From Parapedobacter soli (GTDB lineage: Bacteria; Bacteroidota; Bacteroidia; Sphingobacteriales; Sphingobacteriaceae), in assembly GCF_025460835.1 (NCBI RefSeq), contig NZ_JAMXAY010000007.1, positions 1 through 64,000 of the forward strand: a stretch of DNA of 64,000 nucleotides, in the 5' to 3' direction. Under the pieces are notes generated by a model that searched no databases, had not been told where the DNA came from, and was given only the letters and a program-made list of their open reading frames with translations. Each line of letters begins with the position of its first letter. Positions within the stretch are counted from its first letter, which is position 1. Below, in pieces: positions 4,351-60,331 of the stretch. Made by a program: the position numbers and the translations under genes.

Positions 4351-5967
4351 GTGAAAAAAAACTATTTATTGGCCCTACTGAGTGCGCTCTTATTATGGTT
4401 GGCATGGCCACCGTTCTCTTATACCTCGCCCCTACTTTGGGTGGCTTTCGTGCCGCTCCTGCTGGCGCTCGAAACCGTGATGCGGGGCGACTACCGCCGC
4501 AAAGGCGGCAAAGTTTTCCTGCTGGGCGGGCTGACGGGTCTCGTATGGAACACAGCCTCCATCTACTGGGTATTCAACGCCATGAATGCCGTGATGCCCG
4601 TGTATGCGGCAGCGTTCGTTTCATTGATTCCATTCGGGCTAGCCGCCCTATTGATGGCCTTGGCCTTCCGGCTGTACTACCAATTGCGTAAGCGCTACGC
4701 CATCGGATGGTCATTGGCGGGATTGGTTTCCTTCTGGATGACCTACGAATACCTGCACCAGAGTTGGGACCTATCCTTCCCCTGGATGACCTTGGGCAAC
4801 GGGTTCGCCGGCACCCACCAGCTGGTGCAGTGGTATGAATTTACGGGGGTATATGGTGGAACCGTGTGGATATGGGCAAGCAACATCCTGCTCTTCCTGA
4901 TTATCTTATCCGCCAAAGATGGCTTCGGGCGGGCACACCGCTATAAGCTGCTGGGCGCACTCGTGCTCCTCATCGGCATACCTTCAGCATGGTCTTTATA
5001 CCGCTATTCCAGCTACGAGGAACACCAAAACCCCTCGGATGTGGTGGTGGTGCAGCCTAACATCAACCCTTATGGCAAGTTCACCTTCATCACGCCCGAA
5101 CAACAGATCGACAACCTCATCCGGCTGTCGGATTCGGTAGCCCAGCCGAACACGGAATTTTTCATCTGGCCGGAAACGGCCATCGCCAGGCAAGGCGGGT
5201 TTGATGAAGACCGCTTTTATGAACACCCCGCCTTCTTCCGTATCGAGCAGTTTTTACGGCAGTATAAGAATGGAAACGTCCTCTCGGGCATCGAGGGTTA
5301 TCGGGTCTATAACGATCAACGGACGCCTACTGCGCGCGAATATGACGGTATCTATTACGATGCCTTCAATTCGGCCGTGCTGATCGAAAATTCCGCCAAA
5401 CTCCAGTTTTACCACAAGTCCAAGCTGGTGGCCGGCGCCGAACAATTTCCCTTTGCAGGAGCGTTGGGGTTCCTGAAACCGCTGTTCGCCGGATTCGGCG
5501 GCACCACAGGCGGGTACGGGAGCCAGGACAAGCCTTCGGTTTTCTACTCGCAAAGTGGCATCGGTGCCGCACCCGTCATCTGTTACGAATCGATATGGGG
5601 TAATTACGTCGCCGAATACGTCCGCGAGGGAGCGCAGTTCATCGCTATCATAACCAATGATGGCTGGTGGGGCGACACGGCGGGGAAAGACCAGCACCTG
5701 GCGTACGCCAAACTACGGGCTATCGAAACGCGGCGCTGGGTGGCCCGGTCGGCCAACACGGGTATTTCCGCATTCATCAATCAACGGGGCGACGTGGTGC
5801 AGCAAACCAACTGGTGGGTGCCCACCGCGCTTAAACAAGACATCAACCTCAACGAGGAGATCACGTTCTACGTATCTACAGGCGACTACCCCGCCTACGC
5901 CGGGCTTGCCGGCAGTGCCGGGTTCGCTTTCCTGATCTTGCTTGCCCTCATCAGGCGTAAAAAGTAA
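4351..5967 (+). CDS. lnt: Apolipoprotein N-acyltransferase
   Basis: 538 residues. Lnt adds the third acyl chain to the N-terminal Cys of lipoproteins in the inner membrane. N-terminal half: six to eight hydrophobic segments, beginning LLALLSALLLWLAWPPFSY. C-terminal half: nitrilase-like domain with a visible Glu-Lys-Cys triad: E275 in FFIWPETA, K356 in FYHKSKLVAG and C411 in PVICYESIWG. A last hydrophobic segment precedes RRKK. It uses a GTG start two bases after the upstream stop. The role fits the very large number of lipoproteins encoded in this window. Confidence 0.93.
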   Translation: MKKNYLLALLSALLLWLAWPPFSYTSPLLWVAFVPLLLALETVMRGDYRRKGGKVFLLGGLTGLVWNTASIYWVFNAMNAVMPVYAAAFVSLIPFGLAALLMALAFRLYYQLRKRYAIGWSLAGLVSFWMTYEYLHQSWDLSFPWMTLGNGFAGTHQLVQWYEFTGVYGGTVWIWASNILLFLIILSAKDGFGRAHRYKLLGALVLLIGIPSAWSLYRYSSYEEHQNPSDVVVVQPNINPYGKFTFITPEQQIDNLIRLSDSVAQPNTEFFIWPETAIARQGGFDEDRFYEHPAFFRIEQFLRQYKNGNVLSGIEGYRVYNDQRTPTAREYDGIYYDAFNSAVLIENSAKLQFYHKSKLVAGAEQFPFAGALGFLKPLFAGFGGTTGGYGSQDKPSVFYSQSGIGAAPVICYESIWGNYVAEYVREGAQFIAIITNDGWWGDTAGKDQHLAYAKLRAIETRRWVARSANTGISAFINQRGDVVQQTNWWVPTALKQDINLNEEITFYVSTGDYPAYAGLAGSAGFAFLILLALIRRKK

Positions 5968-6008
5968 TCACTATCTTTGTGGATTGGTTCACAAACGCAC
6001 AAACACAC

Positions 6009-6599
6009 ATGTTCACCGGCATCATCGAAACCCTAGGCAATGTCACCCACCTTCGTCAGGAAGCGGGAAATCTCCATATTACTGTGGCCTCCACCTTATC
6101 GGATGAGCTCAAAATCGACCAGAGCATCGCGCATAACGGCGTTTGCCTTACCGTGGTTGCCTTATCACCTGGTGAGCACACGGTCACGGCCATCGCCGAA
6201 ACACTACAGAAAAGCAATTTGGACGAACTAAAGGTAGGGAGTCTCATCAACCTGGAGCGATGCACCAAGGTGGGCGATCGGCTGGATGGCCATATCGTAC
6301 AGGGGCATGTAGACCAGACCGCGCAGTGCGTATCCATCGCCGATCAGCAAGGTAGCTGGCTATATACGTTCCAATATGACCAAGGGCAGGGCAACATCAC
6401 GGTGGAGAAAGGGTCTATCACGGTCAATGGCATCAGCTTAACGGTGGTAGATTCGCAAGCCGACCGCTTTTCCGTAGCGATTATCCCCTATACCCTCGAA
6501 CATACCAACCTCAGCGAAGTGAGGGTCGGCGATAGCGTAAATCTCGAATTTGACGTTATCGGCAAGTACGTGGCACGGATCATGGCCCTCAGGGGGTAA
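6009..6599 (+). CDS. ribE: Riboflavin synthase alpha chain
   Basis: 196 residues, normal for this enzyme, which converts two 6,7-dimethyl-8-ribityllumazine molecules to riboflavin and pyrimidinedione. The start is at MFTGIIE, the near-invariant N-terminus; the frame extends 10 codons upstream without support. Two lumazine-binding beta-barrels are seen (about 1-90 and 91-196), with paired motifs NGVCLTV and NGISLTVV and the GHIVQGHVD segment. It lies 41 bp after lnt in the same direction and its end overlaps the convergent mscS gene by 11 bp. Confidence 0.95.
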   Translation: MFTGIIETLGNVTHLRQEAGNLHITVASTLSDELKIDQSIAHNGVCLTVVALSPGEHTVTAIAETLQKSNLDELKVGSLINLERCTKVGDRLDGHIVQGHVDQTAQCVSIADQQGSWLYTFQYDQGQGNITVEKGSITVNGISLTVVDSQADRFSVAIIPYTLEHTNLSEVRVGDSVNLEFDVIGKYVARIMALRG

Positions 6600-17828: not shown

Positions 17829-20816
17829 ATGCATAATATGAGAATCTTAATTGGCTGTATACTGATGTTGTCCATACACGCAGTGGCTGCAGGTTCTACC
17901 TTTCGGGGCGGTGGGCTACACCTAGCATCGCAAGATACCCTGCTGGAAGCGCCCACGCAGCGAGATAGCCTCGCAGTTGATTCAGTAGCAACAGACTTGC
18001 TCCCACCTAAAAGGGGTTCCATTTTTAGCGATCAGCACGTGATTACGGTTGCGCTTGATGCAGATGACATTGCACGCTTTCCGGCAACTTCGCTCCAACA
18101 GTATCTCAAAAATCAAGCTCCGGGGCTTTATATACAGGAAAGTACGGGCGAGCCCGGCACAGTGCAACCCATGCACATCAGGGGTATACCGATGCCTATC
18201 CTCACACAGAAGGAGGTATATCAGTCACAGCCCTTGGTCGTGCTCGATGGGATCCCGTTGATTGGGGAACATCCGTTTGCTTTTGATATCCAACAGTATC
18301 AGTTCGATCGTATAGGCCCCGCTACCAACCTGTTGGGCAATATCGACATGAACAACATCGAATCGATCCAAGTACTTAAAGACATCGGAAGCACCGCCAT
18401 CTACGGTCCAATGGCAGCCAATGGGGTAATCGCTATTACGACTAAACAGCCCGGTACCACACGTAAAATCAGCTTCAATTCCTACGTCGGTGTTGCGCAG
18501 CGGCCGACGGTCACGGCCATCAATGGCGAATACGAAAACGCTTTCCGCCAACAGTTCTACGACCGCTACACAGCTATCGGACGGTATTCGGCAGACGATG
18601 CGTATCCGCTGTACCTCAGCGATTCGCTAAATGCTTCCTATTACGGGCCGTCGAACTGGACAGACAGCTACTACCGCAACGGTTTGGTCTATTCGGCCGA
18701 TGCCGATATTTCCGGCGGTGGCGACCGGGCAAACTTCCGCTTCGCCGTGGGCCACATGCAAAACCAAGGAGTTGCCGACCAAACCGGCATGAAACGCTAC
18801 AGCGCGTTGTTCAATATCAATATGAAACCAGTCAAATGGCTGCTCTTTTCCGCGATGATAAACGGTAACCGCGTGCTTCGCGACCGTAACCGTACGCTAC
18901 GCGACCGATTCGCCACCATGTCATACATCCCCGACCTGTCGTCGCCACTATCCCCCAACAACACCGTTTATGGCCAATACTTGAACGAATTCGATAACAG
19001 CTTCGACAATAACGCTACGAATATCGTCGAAGGGCATGCGAAACTACTTTTCGATTTCAATCGGCTGACGGTCACCTCACGGCTGGCCGTTGATTACAAT
19101 GAAGGTAACCGCGACCTATTTTACCCCCGGCCACTGATGGAAGAAAACAGTTTCGCAGCGAATTACTACGGGTACAATCAACGGCTTATTTTCGACAACC
19201 ACTTATCGTATAATGTGCCGGTGGGCAACCAGCATCACCTGTTCATCGAAGCCGGAAATGTGCTCCAATGGGATGCCTTCAAATACAATTACGCCTATGC
19301 GTACAAAGGCATCAATGACTTTATTAAAATCAATCTGCTGGAATCAGACCCTGACAATGGCAATTACCTCAATCCGCTTGCTTTTCCGAGGGAAATGGTC
19401 TTTAAATTCTTAGACTATACCAAACAAAACCTGATTTCGGTGTACGGACGGGGCACCTATAACTTCGACGACCGATACACGGTGTCGCTCCTATTACGAA
19501 CGGACGGCTCTTCCAATGCCCAGCCGACCAGCCGCTGGCTGTTTACGCCGACACTGGCTTTTGACTGGAATATCAAAAACGACCTGCTGGCGGATGCCCC
19601 CACCATTTCCACACTGAAGCTACGTACCAGCGTAGGGCGTCTGGGCCGTCTCAATGTATTCGATAATTTTTCGCAGGGACCAACCTATTCAACCTTTGTA
19701 GGATATACAGGCAACGTGATCACACCCGGTTACAACGGCTTTGGTGTACTCACCCGGCCGTATGAATTCGGATGGTCAGGCTATGGCATCCCATGGGCCT
19801 ATAGCGATCAATTGAACATTGGATTGGACATCGGGCTCGCCGATGAACGCTTCCGCATCAACCTTGATTGGTATACCAAGTACGACCGAAACCAGCTTTT
19901 GGGCGTTCCTTCGTACGCCGAATTCGGTTACCGCCAGTCGTATAATGCGGGTATGGACGTCAACAATACCGGCGTTGAGCTCCTATTGAGTGCCGACGCG
20001 GTAAAAAAGGACAACTTCACCTGGACACCGTCGCTGAACATCAGCTACAACACCAACCAGCTGGTTAGTCTACCCGGCGGGCTCGATGAGATCGTCATCA
20101 ACAACCGGCTATTCCGCGTCGGAGAACGCATCGATCGCTTTTGGATTCTTCAAAACGAAGGCATCTACCTGAGCGATGAGGAAGTCCCGACGCGTGATGG
20201 CAATGCCATGAACTACAATGGCATCCCCCTGCGTGCGGGCGACCCCCGTTGGGCGGACGTAAACGGCGACAACACCATCAATGACGCCGACCGCCAATTG
20301 AAAGGCACGATTCTTCCGAAAGTCATCGGCGGATTCATGAACCAATTCACCTTCGGCGACTGGAGCCTGGATGCTCATTTTTACTTCAACATCGGGCGCA
20401 ACGTGCTGAACGCCGATATGGCCAACCGATTCGATTTCATTAACCGTGAAGGGGTAACAGAAATGAATTCCGTGAAGGAAATCACCTTTTGGGAGAAACG
20501 AGGCGACTACAGCCGTTATCCGTTATATAATCCGTGGAGCAACGTCATCCCCTACCGCAAAGAACAGGACCTCTTCCTCGAAGACGCTTCTTTCCTCAAG
20601 TTACGTACGCTTTCGCTGGGTTATGACCTGACCAAGCTACTCAACAAAAGTTCGAACATCAGTCGCATATTCGTGTATTGCACCGGCCACAACCTATTCA
20701 CCCTTACGCCCTATACAGGCAGGGACCCTGAGTTGGTCGACTTCATGGGCTACGATACCGGTTACGGACTGCCTATACCACGCACCTACACATTGGGTGT
20801 GCGAATGAATTTATAA
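17829..20816 (+). CDS. SusC/RagA-type TonB-dependent receptor, first of the operon
   Basis: 995 residues from the ATG at 17829 (a second ATG at 17838 is equally possible); both give a good signal peptide ending near IHAVAAG. It lacks the usual CarboxypepD_reg domain: after about 60 low-complexity residues it goes straight to the plug (ARFPATSLQQYLKNQAPGLY, MHIRGIPMP, PLVVLDGIPLIG, ESIQVLKDIGSTAIYGPMAA). The barrel ends in RTYTLGVRMNL. The plug keeps the SusC signature with an enlarged loop (about 150-200). It is paired with the susD 26 bp downstream. Ligand unknown. Confidence 0.92.
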   Translation: MHNMRILIGCILMLSIHAVAAGSTFRGGGLHLASQDTLLEAPTQRDSLAVDSVATDLLPPKRGSIFSDQHVITVALDADDIARFPATSLQQYLKNQAPGLYIQESTGEPGTVQPMHIRGIPMPILTQKEVYQSQPLVVLDGIPLIGEHPFAFDIQQYQFDRIGPATNLLGNIDMNNIESIQVLKDIGSTAIYGPMAANGVIAITTKQPGTTRKISFNSYVGVAQRPTVTAINGEYENAFRQQFYDRYTAIGRYSADDAYPLYLSDSLNASYYGPSNWTDSYYRNGLVYSADADISGGGDRANFRFAVGHMQNQGVADQTGMKRYSALFNINMKPVKWLLFSAMINGNRVLRDRNRTLRDRFATMSYIPDLSSPLSPNNTVYGQYLNEFDNSFDNNATNIVEGHAKLLFDFNRLTVTSRLAVDYNEGNRDLFYPRPLMEENSFAANYYGYNQRLIFDNHLSYNVPVGNQHHLFIEAGNVLQWDAFKYNYAYAYKGINDFIKINLLESDPDNGNYLNPLAFPREMVFKFLDYTKQNLISVYGRGTYNFDDRYTVSLLLRTDGSSNAQPTSRWLFTPTLAFDWNIKNDLLADAPTISTLKLRTSVGRLGRLNVFDNFSQGPTYSTFVGYTGNVITPGYNGFGVLTRPYEFGWSGYGIPWAYSDQLNIGLDIGLADERFRINLDWYTKYDRNQLLGVPSYAEFGYRQSYNAGMDVNNTGVELLLSADAVKKDNFTWTPSLNISYNTNQLVSLPGGLDEIVINNRLFRVGERIDRFWILQNEGIYLSDEEVPTRDGNAMNYNGIPLRAGDPRWADVNGDNTINDADRQLKGTILPKVIGGFMNQFTFGDWSLDAHFYFNIGRNVLNADMANRFDFINREGVTEMNSVKEITFWEKRGDYSRYPLYNPWSNVIPYRKEQDLFLEDASFLKLRTLSLGYDLTKLLNKSSNISRIFVYCTGHNLFTLTPYTGRDPELVDFMGYDTGYGLPIPRTYTLGVRMNL

Positions 20817-36165: not shown

Positions 36166-37575
36166 CTAAGATGCCGAAGCCGATGGTGCCGACGATGAGT
36201 TAGTTTCCACTCCCTCTGCGGCATTCGGCTTCCGGTTTTTATTCCGTCTTTTGAACGGGCGCTTCTTCTTTTTAGGGGCTTCGTCAGGCGTCGCTGCCGA
36301 AGCAGCGTTTCCTTCGGTATTTTTGGGTTGCTGAGAACCTTGACGATTACCCGGTTTCCCACCTTTTCGCTTATTCCGCGACTGGTTTCGGTCGCCACTC
36401 CGTCGATCTCCGCGCCGCCGGTCGCGATCGGGGGTCTCGACCGCAGCCTCGATGCCGTCGGGAAGCGGTGCTTCATCCACTTTCCGTTCCATCAACTGCT
36501 CAATTGCGGCAAAGCGCCTGCTATCGCGGCCATTTACAAACGTAATGGCCGTGCCGGTGGTCTCGGCCCGGGCAGTCCGGCCGATGCGGTGGATGTAATC
36601 TTCCGGGTCGGGTGGCACGTCGTAGTTGACCACCAAGTCGATACCGACCACATCGATACCACGCGAAAGCACATCGGTACCGACCAAGATGGGCAGCTGC
36701 TTGTTCTTGAAACGCAGCAGGATCTTTTCCCGTTCTTCCTGGGAAAGGTCGGAATGGAAAGGCTGCACAGCCAAACCCATCTTGCCCAGTTCCCGGCCTA
36801 AACTCTTGACCTTTTCCTTGGTCGATGAAAAGACGATGATGCTCTTGAAATCACCGCTTTTCAGGATCTGCTTCAATAATGGTGTTTTCTGATTGTCGGC
36901 TACGCGATACTGTTGTTGAACAATACCCTCGGCAGGTTTAGAAAGCGCGATATTGACCTGCTTTGGCTGTTTCAACAGCGTTTTGGCGAACGCACGTATT
37001 TTTGGCGGCATGGTCGCTGAAAAGAGCATGGTCTGCCGCTCGGTGGCCAGTTCACGGACAATGCGATTGATATCGTCTTTGAAGCCCATATCAAGCATGC
37101 GGTCAGCCTCGTCGAGCACCAGGAACTTAATCTCGTCGAGCCTCACTTTGCCCGAACTGATGTGTGCGATCAACCTACCCGGCGTAGCCACCACGATATC
37201 GACGCCCTCGCGCAGCGCGCGGCGTTGTTGTTCATAACCGATACCATCGCCGCCGCCATAGATGGCTATGGACGTGATTCCTGTGAAATACGCCAGCCCT
37301 TCCACCTGCTGGTCGATCTGCATGGCCAACTCGCGGGTTGGTGCAAGGATCAGGGCGCTAACCGGCGGGCGTTGATCCAGCCGGCAAATCGCATCCATTA
37401 CCGGCAAGAGGTATGAAGCTGTTTTGCCCGTACCCGTCTGGGCGCATGCAATCAAATCGTGTTTATCTTGTATAATCGGAATGGTTTCGGCCTGTATCGG
37501 TGTGGGCGTTTTGAAGCCCATGCTATTCAAGCCTTCAAAAAGGTCGCTATCGAAGTTAAAATCGCTAAATGTCAA
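36166..37575 (-). CDS. rhlE: DEAD-box RNA helicase, RhlE type
   Basis: 469 residues. All helicase motifs are present in order: Q motif PTPIQAETIP, motif I AQTGTGKT, Ia PTRELA, Ib TPGRL, II DEAD, III SAT, then in domain two FSSTKEK, TDVLSRGIDV and motif VI HRIGRTAR. The C-terminal 90 residues are basic and low complexity (RDRRRGDRRSGDRNQ..., KKKKRPFKRRNKNRK), a typical RNA-binding tail. Probable roles are ribosome assembly and RNA turnover, often at low temperature. Convergent with the large operon, 83 bp away. Confidence 0.93.
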   Translation of the reverse strand: MTFSDFNFDSDLFEGLNSMGFKTPTPIQAETIPIIQDKHDLIACAQTGTGKTASYLLPVMDAICRLDQRPPVSALILAPTRELAMQIDQQVEGLAYFTGITSIAIYGGGDGIGYEQQRRALREGVDIVVATPGRLIAHISSGKVRLDEIKFLVLDEADRMLDMGFKDDINRIVRELATERQTMLFSATMPPKIRAFAKTLLKQPKQVNIALSKPAEGIVQQQYRVADNQKTPLLKQILKSGDFKSIIVFSSTKEKVKSLGRELGKMGLAVQPFHSDLSQEEREKILLRFKNKQLPILVGTDVLSRGIDVVGIDLVVNYDVPPDPEDYIHRIGRTARAETTGTAITFVNGRDSRRFAAIEQLMERKVDEAPLPDGIEAAVETPDRDRRRGDRRSGDRNQSRNKRKGGKPGNRQGSQQPKNTEGNAASAATPDEAPKKKKRPFKRRNKNRKPNAAEGVETNSSSAPSASAS

Positions 37576-37614: not shown

Positions 37615-37691
37615 CACATTTATTGCGTATTACCCATAGCCAATTCGCAGCATTGCAGGAACATAGGCATTTAAACAGCGGTTTATTCAGA

Positions 37692-38173
37692 TTTGTGCAC
37701 ATGTAGTTCCAATTTACATGTGGGTCACTTGCTTTTCATGAGCGGAATCCCTGTCAGGCCCCATGCTATTCACTTTTGCAAACGTACACATCCATTTTGC
37801 ACGATCGCAATTCGGCTTTACATGTGGGTCATTTGCTATTGTACGAATGAAATTCCAGGTAGACTCCGTGCTATTCACTTTTGCAAGCATGCACATCCCT
37901 TTTACACGATGGCAGGTTACTTCTGCAAGAGTGAAATCCCGGTTAGACCCCATGCTATTCACTTTTGCAAGCATGCACATCACTTCTATACGACGGCCAT
38001 TTGCCTTTACATGGATGCCATTCCAATGCGCACCCGTGCTATTTACTTTTGCAAGCGTGCAGATCACTTCTACACGACGGCCATTTGCCTTTGCACGGAT
38101 GAAATTCCGATTAGCACGCGTGCAAATTGCTTTTTCCCTATTGCAATTTACTTTTGCACGCGTGCAGACGTTT
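37692..38173. repeat. Tandem array of 23 degenerate 21-bp units
   Basis: From 37754 to 38173 twenty 21-bp units run with no gap or slip. Three more lie upstream (37692, 37713, and a 20-bp unit at 37734). Units begin TTTGCA or TTTACA and carry TG near position 11 and ATT near 16-18. The units at 38111 and 38153 contain the dyad GCACGCGTGC, and GCAAGCGTGC/GCAAGCATGC variants recur. A higher order of four units (84 bp) is seen: 37880 and 37964 differ at one base, as do 37985 and 38069. Twenty-one bp is seven codons and two helical turns. Long frames stay open on both strands, including a minus-strand frame (37714-38313) with heptads such as AKVNSMG, but no family match is apparent. Described here as a repeat of unknown function. 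Confidence 0.9.
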
Positions 38174-38221
38174 TTAAAAAACGTGAAAATCAATGTTTGT
38201 GATACGATGAAGCCATATTCC

Positions 38222-38282
38222 CAAATAAAAGTGAGCCAAAAAGATTTTCGGGATACCCCGAAATATGGCACACTTTTATTTG
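38222..38282. repeat. Long imperfect hairpin beside the 21-bp array
   Basis: Outer arms pair 38222-38233 with 38271-38282 (12 bp, CAAATAAAAGTG and its complement). After one A-A mismatch GCCA (38235-38238) pairs TGGC (38266-38269), and the tip TTTCGGG-ATAC-CCCGAAA (38246-38263) is perfect. A short T-run follows at 38284-38289. It could be a mobile-element relic, an RNA structure or a terminator of plus-strand transcription from the array. Confidence 0.6.
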
Positions 38283-38358
38283 CTTTTTTGATTTCCTGCA
38301 TTTCGCCAAACATTATCCATTAATGATTGTTCCATCTCCAATAAATCACCATAGGTAG

Positions 38359-38386
38359 TGTGATCACAATTATTTCATTATCTTTG
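38359..38386 (+). promoter_or_regulatory. Promoter region of the AI-2E permease
   Basis: TATCTTTG at 38379-38386 matches the -7 consensus TAnnTTTG, 35 bp before the ATG. The perfect 10-bp palindrome TGTGATCACA lies at 38359-38368, roughly where the -33 would be, and might bind a CRP-type activator. No TTTG -33 is present. Confidence 0.4.
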
Positions 38387-38421: not shown

Positions 38422-39597
38422 ATGCAAGAAAACCCTACCAAGAGGCCTTATTCGGTGGAATTAGCAGCCAGTTTGATTTCGTTGGCACTCATCATCGCCT
38501 TGATGTATGTACTGCAAAGTGTGTTGCTACCGCTCATGTTTTCCATCCTCATTGCCATGTCGCTATACCCGGTGGCCATCGCCCTTGAGCGGCTACGGCT
38601 CGGCAAAGCATTCTCCGCATTGCTGGCGGTTATATTGGCTATTGCGGTACTTTCGGGATTAGTCTGGTTTATCGTCCATCAGGTAATTGTCATTGGCCGG
38701 GATGGAACCGACATCCAACACAAGTTCCTAACGATATTCGACACCATACAGCGGTGGCTACAGGAGCGTTTCGGGATAGAACCTACGGAAGTCGTTGAGC
38801 GGCTGAGAGGGCAGGCTAATCAAATCCTTTCCAACGCGGCTTCATACATTACTGCTGCTTTTGGCTCTATCGGCAATGTTTTGGCGGGTGTTATATTGGT
38901 ACCGTTGTTTTCGTTTTTCCTATTGTACTACCGGGTCTTCTTTCGGGAGTTTTTCTTCCGTGCTTTTAAATCCGTTCCCCAAGAGATTGTTCATAATACG
39001 CTCAATAAAATATACCACGTAGTGCAGAGTTACCTCCTCGGACTCGTAACGGTAATGGGCATCGTAGCGGTCCTCAACACCGTGGGACTGTGGATAATGG
39101 GTATCCAGTATGCGTGGTTTTTTGGCACACTCGCTTCACTACTGATGTTACTGCCGTATATCGGGATTGCCATAGGCTCCATACTTCCCGCGATTTTTGC
39201 GCTGGCTACTAAAGATAGTGCTTGGTATGCTGTGGGGGTTATTGCTTGGTTCCAAGTGGTGCAATTTCTGGAGGGCAACCTCATCACGCCCAACATCGTT
39301 GGTGGCAAGGTAAGCATCAATCCGCTGATGTCCATCATTTCCATCCTCCTTGGAGGTATGCTTTTCGGCCTCGCCGGCTTGATCTTGGCCCTGCCGCTTA
39401 CCGCCACCGTAAAGGTCATCTTCGATGCGGTACCATCAATGAACGCGTTCGGTTTCCTTATTGGCGAGCCCGAAAAATATCACCTCAAACGATATTCCAC
39501 CAAAATCCTGCTTAAACGGTGGAAACTTCGGGATCTGCTGGAAACGCGGGATAAGAAAAAGGGTGAAGCAAAAAAAGAACCGCCAGAAGACGACTGA
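38422..39597 (+). CDS. AI-2E family (PerM-type) membrane transporter
   Basis: 391 residues. Seven to eight hydrophobic segments in the PerM pattern: two N-terminal helices (LAASLISLALIIALMYVL, LLPLMFSILIAMSLYPVAI), a long amphipathic loop (about 90-150), then a C-terminal bundle with LLPYIGIAIGSILPAIF, EGNLITPNIVGGKVSINP and the closing LAGLILALPLTATVKVIFD. The tail is charged and cytosolic (RDKKKGEAKKEPPEDD). Members are proposed AI-2 exporters or Na+/H+ antiporters, so the substrate is open. Confidence 0.9.
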   Translation: MQENPTKRPYSVELAASLISLALIIALMYVLQSVLLPLMFSILIAMSLYPVAIALERLRLGKAFSALLAVILAIAVLSGLVWFIVHQVIVIGRDGTDIQHKFLTIFDTIQRWLQERFGIEPTEVVERLRGQANQILSNAASYITAAFGSIGNVLAGVILVPLFSFFLLYYRVFFREFFFRAFKSVPQEIVHNTLNKIYHVVQSYLLGLVTVMGIVAVLNTVGLWIMGIQYAWFFGTLASLLMLLPYIGIAIGSILPAIFALATKDSAWYAVGVIAWFQVVQFLEGNLITPNIVGGKVSINPLMSIISILLGGMLFGLAGLILALPLTATVKVIFDAVPSMNAFGFLIGEPEKYHLKRYSTKILLKRWKLRDLLETRDKKKGEAKKEPPEDD

Positions 39598-59230: not shown

Positions 59231-60331
59231 CTACAACTCGCCGTGCTGGAATATGTTCTCGCCGGCACCCTGTTTTTTCAGCAACACAAAATGTGACCGA
59301 ACTGCCTTGATTGCTGGGTAGCAGGTATAAGGTAAATTATACTCTTGGGCATACCGCCTTATGATGGGCGTAATATAAGGGTAATAGGTATGGGCCACAT
59401 GGGGAAACAGGTGATGCGCCACATGGTGGGTAAATCCGCCGAAGAGGAAATTGGCAATCGCGCTGTCTGCACTGAAATCCTTGGTAACCATCATTTGGTG
59501 CTCCGCCCACGTGACATCCATCTTGCCATCAGGGGGTGGCAGTGGAAAAACAGCAGTTTCATCCACATGGGTGGATATCAACGCAATGACACCCAGCAAG
59601 CTCCCGAAGATGTGCATGCACAACCACCCCAAAACTACGATATACCACGGTTGATTGAGCACCATGATCGGAACAGCTATCAGGTAAAATAGATTGAATA
59701 GCTTAGCTGCGAACAACTTGTAATATTCCCGCTTGGGAATCTTCATGATACGCTTTATATAGTTATCCTTGGTACCGAAGAAATCCTTAAAATCACGTAT
59801 AAACAGCCAGTTGAGTGTATACAGCGGATACAACATAAACATATAAATATGTTGGTAACGGTGCTGGTTCAGGTATTCGCTATCAGGGAATATGCGCACC
59901 AGGTCACTCTGCTTGATATCCGTATCCCAATGCTGGATATTCGGGTAAGGGTGGTGCAACGCATTGTGGCGCTTGGCCCACAACCAGCTGTTGCTTCCAA
60001 AAAGCTCCAATACATACATAAACCGCTGGTTGTGCTTGCGCTTTTTGAATACCGACCCGTGCGCTGCATCGTGGAACGCATTGATGAACAGCATGATCAT
60101 CGAAAACCCCAACAAAATATAACATAGGAACAGTAAAGGGGTCGAGTTGCCGAACACTAAAATACTGGCATACAGTCCAAGATATAGAAAAAGCAAGAAG
60201 TACGTTTTCACCACGTTCCGGCGCTGTATGCGTTTATCGCCAAGTACTTTTTCCTGTACCTCTTTTTGCAGTTTCTTGAAGAAATCATCGGGCCCGGGTT
60301 TTTTATATGTTGGTTTCACCAATGTCTCCAT
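59231..60331 (-). CDS. Membrane fatty acid desaturase
   Basis: 366 residues. Diiron desaturase with three His clusters: HDAAHGS (about 88), HNALHHPYPN (about 122), and HHVAHHLFPH (about 300). Four to six hydrophobic segments surround them (LLFLYLGLYASILVFG, LLFLCYILLGFSMIMLFI). It introduces double bonds into acyl chains of membrane lipids. No electron donor is fused or adjacent. A -7 box TACCTTTG is upstream. Convergent with mazG, separated by 1 bp. Confidence 0.92.
   Translation of the reverse strand: METLVKPTYKKPGPDDFFKKLQKEVQEKVLGDKRIQRRNVVKTYFLLFLYLGLYASILVFGNSTPLLFLCYILLGFSMIMLFINAFHDAAHGSVFKKRKHNQRFMYVLELFGSNSWLWAKRHNALHHPYPNIQHWDTDIKQSDLVRIFPDSEYLNQHRYQHIYMFMLYPLYTLNWLFIRDFKDFFGTKDNYIKRIMKIPKREYYKLFAAKLFNLFYLIAVPIMVLNQPWYIVVLGWLCMHIFGSLLGVIALISTHVDETAVFPLPPPDGKMDVTWAEHQMMVTKDFSADSAIANFLFGGFTHHVAHHLFPHVAHTYYPYITPIIRRYAQEYNLPYTCYPAIKAVRSHFVLLKKQGAGENIFQHGEL

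Follow-up and report, generated by a model that had tools for sequence, protein, structure and literature searches.

A hairpin-headed array of 21-bp units in Parapedobacter soli is a copy of an apparently undescribed Bacteroidota element that suggests a multi-site protein-binding control region

A phased array of 21-bp units and the nested hairpin that precedes it were identified in a 64,000-nucleotide stretch of the Parapedobacter soli genome (contig NZ_JAMXAY010000007.1, hereafter the window), and the two were found to form a copy of what is apparently an undescribed type of element in the Bacteroidota. The copy in the window is an orphan form of this hairpin-array element, located between helicase-like and transporter-like genes and ordered on the minus strand as hairpin, 55-bp spacer, and array (Table 1). 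Many other copies are linked to a gene of one unassigned protein family of about 205 amino acids, and this linkage suggests that the element is a control region of a new kind, with multiple protein-binding sites. A description of such an element was not found in the open-access literature, a scope that leaves subscription journals mostly outside and an earlier description possible.

Table 1. Positions of the element and of its neighboring genes in the window.
Feature	Position	Strand	Basis
DEAD-box-helicase-like gene (presumed), beyond array tail	36166..37575	-	start at 37575
Degenerate array tail, about 3 units, past a 1-bp slip (from about 37725)	37684..37746	-	read by eye
Array, 20 in-phase 21-bp units with 84-bp higher order	37747..38166	-	TRF and lag identity
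Spacer, 55 bp, hairpin to array	38167..38221	-	sequence common to C164 and C99
Nested hairpin (header), 61 nt	38222..38282	-	covariation over 24 copies; R3 match
AI-2E-family-like transporter gene (presumed), divergent from hairpin side	38422..39597	+	start at 38422

The original prediction had placed 20 slip-free units at 37754-38173, and these proved to be the same array in another register, with 20 successive units on the minus strand, read downward from the spacer, and zero slips. Identity of the array with itself was 0.481 at lag 21 and 0.673 at lag 84, compared with maxima of 0.331 and 0.336, respectively, in 1,000 dinucleotide shuffles. TRF called a period of 84 at 37847-38123 and a period of 21 at 38030-38166. 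The 84-bp higher order that had been described was likewise recovered, with unit-to-unit identity of 0.673 at lag 4 versus 0.48 to 0.55 at lags 1 to 3 and 5. The dyad reported within the units is present, but its occurrence in several of them was overstated, as the exact GCACGCGTGC was found twice and the relatives of this sequence in other units are imperfect. The stretch had been called gene-free, which is consistent with an array lying between the starts of two flanking genes and crossed by open frames that lack a codon signal in the header. The flanking products are DEAD-box-helicase-like, judged by motifs, and AI-2E-family-like, judged by the transporter sequence; TATCTTTG at 38379-38386 on the transporter side is promoter-like, judged by the consensus. 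Elsewhere in the window, two tandem copies of a different 21-bp unit (GTAACCGCACGCTACGCGACC, 81% match), unrelated by eye, were observed at 18865-18907, and a 24-bp unit was observed twice in tandem at 59379-59426.

BLAST of the window array against its own genome revealed two further places, C164 and C99. At both, a conserved block holding the 61-nt nested hairpin was located directly before the first unit, and this block together with the first unit formed 143 ungapped columns of 75 to 81% identity among the three copies; the first unit of the window differed from that of C99 at 1 of 21 positions. The unit sequences common to these first three copies indicate that hairpin and array travel together. 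When the 42 units of the three copies were connected by a minimal spanning tree, with a fixed register from the first unit and counting ended where phase was lost, 169 substitutions and 0 indels were counted. The surroundings of the window copy were also compared with those of eight sister species. The transporter gene was kept in all eight; a hairpin was not found beside it in any, and the helicase was not within 1.5 kb of it. Weak same-strand similarity upstream of the transporter was detected in four of the eight (E-value 2e-5 to 0.1), with its furthest end at 38308, just outside the hairpin, and in six of these species the upstream gene has an end that we take to resemble the C-terminus of RNase R. 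This conserved transporter side without hairpin or helicase in the sister species implies that an insertion or a rearrangement brought the element to this place.

Relatives of the hairpin were identified beyond this genome. A covariance model built from the three headers detected the same hairpin in sister species G008 (E-value 0.026), where the array is of different sequence and of the same 21-bp pitch, and a second G008 copy was recovered by DNA search. A looser header pattern occurred at 26 sites in 14 of the 399 family genomes searched, compared with 1 site for the reversed control; after two sites in two genomes (L049 and L060) were left out as chance matches, 24 hairpins remained. Across these 24 copies, pairing was 86.0% versus 70.5% in shuffles, cells in which both sides had changed numbered 98 versus 33.5 in shuffles (with slid controls at 35 or fewer), and 15 of 21 outer-helix pairs covaried. 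In the window, the hairpin (a feature absent from the original prediction) has an outer stem of about 17 bp and an inner stem around 38246-38263 (TTTCGGGGTATCCCGAAA), and R3, a refined model of the hairpin, matched it at 38204-38299 with an E-value of 6.8e-14. The R3 model also matched 19 of 40 sampled genomes of another genus (g16) at an E-value ≤ 0.01, including two (G349 and G361) whose single matches resemble an unrelated palindrome and look spurious. The 81 hairpin loci analyzed below are those that were fetched, with about a dozen weaker R3 matches left out and with L103 and L105, which resemble unrelated palindromes, still counted. Strict header searches returned only the own genome or chance matches; this is not evidence of absence because the looser models found relatives. 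Sites L024 to L029 (E-value 0.03 to 0.9) were judged by eye to be chance matches, with L024 and L025 skipping most of the hairpin. No match of the family member L069 was detected in 72,556 plasmid records or in phages, and viral contigs matched neither the alignment nor the header patterns.

Among the 81 hairpin loci, a signal at multiples of 21 bp was found on the 3′ side at 63 and on the 5′ side at 3, while the same criterion scored 3 of 810 dinucleotide shuffles and 0 of 81 loci at each of the periods 17 to 20 and 22 to 25. As the hairpin model has no array content, the 3′ array is an independent property of these loci. The unit cores varied among copies (GCTAGC, ATGCAT, CCCTTAAGGG, CCTAGG, and others), the unit profile was dyad-symmetric at P < 0.05 against column permutation in 47 of the 63 arrays, and higher-order repeats of 84, 105, 63, and 42 bp were observed. 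The 18 sites without signal include (i) five hairpins of HU-HIG-type genes; (ii) seven of the 35 gene-linked sites; (iii) C99, which has only about four units; and (iv) L066, where the array is visible at one multiple only. The search for other copies thus had the outcome opposite to the one originally named as refuting, as more copies exist, with many array sequences turning over between species.

The gene linked to the hairpin at 35 of the 81 loci encodes a protein of 202 to 207 amino acids; in most cases it points away from the hairpin and begins 48 to 87 bp from it (L102 and L153 have the reversed orientation); accordingly, the 63 arrays comprise 28 that are gene-linked and 35 that are orphans. 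Of the family members scanned, only L156 scored above the Pfam cutoff (CRLF2-like D2, an FN3-type domain), and NCBIfam, PHROGs, and PADLOC provided no above-cutoff match. AlphaFold2 predicted an N-terminal helical domain and a C-terminal FN3 fold at a pLDDT of 87, with the FN3 fold compared by Foldseek; the N-terminal domain alone (pLDDT 93.5) had no PDB match at an E-value ≤ 0.001 and is not notably basic. Loci picked by protein homology alone were also scanned for arrays, taking the best position of the scan and covering 31 of 56 protein matches. Upstream arrays were found at 30 of 37 such loci and downstream arrays at 6 of 37 by script, or 5 without L198, a short-flank artifact. The 25 of these loci that lie outside the 81 hairpin loci had 19 upstream and 3 downstream arrays, and three of the six upstream misses (L173, L178, and L186) are broken or fragmentary genes. 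In other bacterial families, upstream arrays were present at all six loci, from five genomes.

The distribution of the protein followed that of the hairpin. At an E-value ≤ 1e-8, the 205-aa protein was detected in 6 of 395 sampled genomes of the phylum, the own genome included. Within this genus, 2 of 9 genomes contained hairpins, and the protein was detected in exactly these two (P = 0.028). In a set of 18 chosen genomes, consisting of the 9 genomes from this genus and 9 g16 genomes picked by hairpin state, strong protein matches were found in 6 of 6 hairpin-bearing and 0 of 12 hairpin-less genomes (P = 5e-5); the strongest match among the latter was 7e-8 (a single match in G167), yet it has a 21-bp array upstream. 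Additional features were observed around the family genes. A gene-linked array of about 1.2 kb and about 55 units lies between AraC-type and 205-aa-family genes at positions 5251-6480 of locus L191 (G000:C171), where the genes after the family gene are sigma-factor-like and FecR-like. A protein of about 230 amino acids, similar by eye among loci, follows the 205-aa gene at L190:4270-4956, L193:2648-3340, and L032:3032-3874, and its L190 copy had no match in Pfam, PHROGs, or PADLOC.

Many gene-linked arrays were bounded at their far end by a regulator gene. Of 17 far-end frames examined with Pfam, 14 had an AraC-type HTH_18 domain, encoded in the direction of the 205-aa gene; the 17 frames were hand-picked from 29 loci, mostly for an AraC-like look. 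C131 and C171, both complete loci of the own genome, also have an AraC-type regulator at the far end. With a local HMM, the regulator was detected at 27 of the 58 family genes (14 of these regulators had served as seeds of the HMM), and an AraC gene was found at none of 11 AraC-less gene-linked loci for which longer flanks were taken. These results suggest that AraC is common but optional. Six loci of other bacterial families had no AraC within 1.5 kb by local HMM, and an AraC match anywhere in the locus was found at 4 of 46 orphan loci, with the window locus not among them. Seen in its place were one LacI-type gene (L181, without an array by the criterion), one LuxR-type gene, and one Y1 transposase gene. 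Identities of AraC and of the 205-aa protein correlated at 0.916, and array similarity correlated with the two proteins at Mantel values of 0.63 and 0.64 (partial 0.15 and 0.195; 23 loci); these near-equal values do not tell apart which protein reads the array. At two gene-linked loci of G008 (L174 and L177), a hairpin match was observed where the array meets the AraC side, at its far end, and not on the promoter side. Five hairpins (L052, L056, L058, L059, and L065) precede HU-HIG-type genes and lack the array signal; L056, the sole gene of this type scanned, matched PF18291 at an E-value of 6.4e-33. Besides the hairpin, a promoter-like sequence (reverse strand TATGTTTGTATCGTTGCAAC) was observed at both the HU-HIG-type genes and many 205-aa genes.

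Orphans and gene-linked arrays were compared within and between genomes. A fourth hairpin of the own genome, C143 (E-value 8.6e-4), has another core and an array on the matching side with a z-score of 8.0 to 9.9, and the 3.1 kb examined there contained no gene of the protein family and no AraC gene. This orphan and the gene-linked array of C131 in the same genome have a common TACATGTA core; a gene-linked array with the core of the window copy was not found in this genome by BLAST. In other genomes, orphans that match a gene-linked array of their own genome were L148 (with L116) and L146 (with L138), and other orphans were closest to an array of another genome or to none. Mean array similarity was 0.110 within and 0.056 between genomes.

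Comparison of orthologous loci provided a measure of constraint. In one orphan array, which precedes a parC-like gene and was compared between two species, 7 of 441 positions differed, with no indels, compared with 29 of 288 third codon positions at this locus (P = 5e-7); the array is thus about six-fold more conserved than the third codon positions. Two gene-linked pairs aligned without gaps, with 20 of 399 array positions changed versus 41 of 202 third positions for L134/L136, and 24 of 399 versus 30 of 205 for L100/L149. A further ungapped pair, L054/L057, had 54 of 400 versus 30 of 202 and has no array signal by the criterion. In L120/L128, whose 205-aa proteins are identical (rounded), 77 of 393 array positions had changed (20%), with gaps of 1 and 5 bp, and L141/L147 had 41 changes in 391 positions and nine gaps of 1 to 5 bp; these gaps indicate that phase is not strict everywhere. 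For most others of the 32 syntenic pairs, the arrays were too different for a good alignment, which implies that arrays are also replaced wholesale. In L066 compared with L067/L074 at the parC-like locus, an array swapped for another unit type between species was observed, with the hairpin kept. Overall, the selection on spacing that the original prediction had suggested finds support in (i) the return of the 21-bp period in dozens of arrays of differing base sequence; (ii) the zero scores at neighboring periods; and (iii) the orthologous arrays that, in some cases, have acquired substitutions without indels.

On balance, we lean slightly toward the reading in which the array is the DNA-site part of this locus type, its units being putative same-face binding sites of an oligomerizing DNA-binding protein of the system. 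The candidate reader would be the neighboring AraC-type regulator where present, the 205-aa protein, or a partner. The hairpin may mark the end nearest the promoter. Where the element is gene-linked, the 205-aa gene would be under the control of this platform, and orphan copies, that of the window included, may be targets in trans, serving as extra control regions, decoys, or anchoring sites. We also put forward, tentatively and with a little under even confidence, that this is a new class of element, consisting of a platform that begins with a hairpin and carries about 20 dyad sites, their pitch fixed at 21 bp and their sequence re-invented per copy, paired with the helical-FN3 proteins as its dedicated family and with orphans forming a trans-read network. 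Selection for site geometry, here a distance of exactly two helical turns, in DNA of changing sequence would be unusual and is testable. The element provides a handle on the 205-aa protein family, may reveal a new way of building long protein-DNA assemblies, and accounts for 21-bp repeats otherwise open to annotation as spurious open reading frames or minisatellites.

Of the three alternatives originally offered, the one supported is that of protein sites on a single DNA face whose spacing is under selection, while a heptapeptide-repeat coding tract and a structured RNA are both highly improbable accounts. Long frames are open on both strands, and folding of the window sequence had z-scores of about −3 for either strand of the array and of −4 for the header. 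A protein-coding heptad repeat was rejected, however, as the 143-column header has no codon-position bias (differences between copies per codon phase of 12/8/15, 10/8/9, and 10/7/10) and the frame is not open in all copies, with two stops in the minus frame of C99 when header and array were examined. The structured RNA is disfavored, weakly for the hairpin, by near-equal outer-stem mispairs (19 G.T and 16 A.C over the 24 hairpins, which are small numbers), a pattern that gives no sign of one transcribed strand and is expected of a DNA-level inverted repeat; in addition, the header z-score was only about −1 in C164 and C99, and the element had no Rfam match at gathering score, where the sole matches were two tRNA genes in L073. 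It is also improbable that the array is a neutral minisatellite spread by a mobile hairpin element, with phase kept only through duplication of whole units. Higher-order repeats do indicate repeated duplication, the element is missing at this locus in the sister species, array sequences turn over between species, and small gaps occur in two ortholog alignments that are nearly complete. Against such an origin stand the recurrence of exactly 21 bp in unrelated array sequences of several bacterial families, the lack of indels in the fixed-register tree of 42 units, the conservation of the parC-locus array, and the linkage to one protein family.

Two further explanations accept the units as protein sites. 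The array may be an extended operator in which many successive AraC-type half-sites are recognized by the regulator whose gene lies at the far end, an account that we consider possible though rather doubtful. AraC-family half-sites are usually spaced 21 bp, and this reading is in agreement with the frequent HTH_18 domain at the far end and the correlated divergence of the two proteins; a paper on the 21-bp spacing of AraC half-sites was not found in the open-access literature. It is less readily reconciled with the AraC-less loci, including those of other bacterial families, or with the tendency of the units to dyad symmetry, which is not typical of AraC half-sites. Alternatively, and in our estimate unlikely, the copies are structural chromosome sites, serving as anchoring or partition platforms for the 205-aa or HU-HIG proteins rather than in transcription control. 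Dispersed copies in many genomes, orphans without the gene, and the five hairpins at HU-HIG-type genes are consistent with such a role, yet these five hairpins lack the array signal and gene-linked arrays are mostly at one place relative to the promoter.

The element was compared with known systems. The same hairpin upstream of five HU-HIG genes (PF18291) is accompanied by very similar promoter-proximal sequence, without a 21-bp array signal. A CRISPR array, in which unique spacers separate identical repeats, was rejected, as the units are contiguous and degenerate, are 21 bp in length, and have no spacers between them. REP/BIME sequences with their RAYT transposases are likewise dispersed extragenic palindromes of intergenic regions; the element differs in its 61-nt nested hairpin, its one-sided phased array, and its different linked protein family, and Y1_Tnp was found once (L199) among 24 far-end frames run through Pfam. 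A REP palindrome is 20 to 40 bp in length (PMC3733652), and the 61-nt hairpin plus array falls outside this definition. Plasmid iterons and ParR/parC-type centromere arrays similarly have tandem sites about two helical turns apart and an oligomerizing binder, whereas the present element is chromosomal and multi-copy, with no Rep or Par gene noticed next to its copies and no plasmid match for L069. Operators of the AraC/XylS family (e.g., araI1-araI2) are alike in same-face spacing, the arrays having the 21-bp distance between sites that is the rule for such operators, and in the AraC-type regulator near many gene-linked arrays. In contrast to these operators, the arrays described here have about twenty units instead of two, with units that are copy-specific and mostly dyad-symmetric, often lack the regulator, and are headed at one end by a hairpin.
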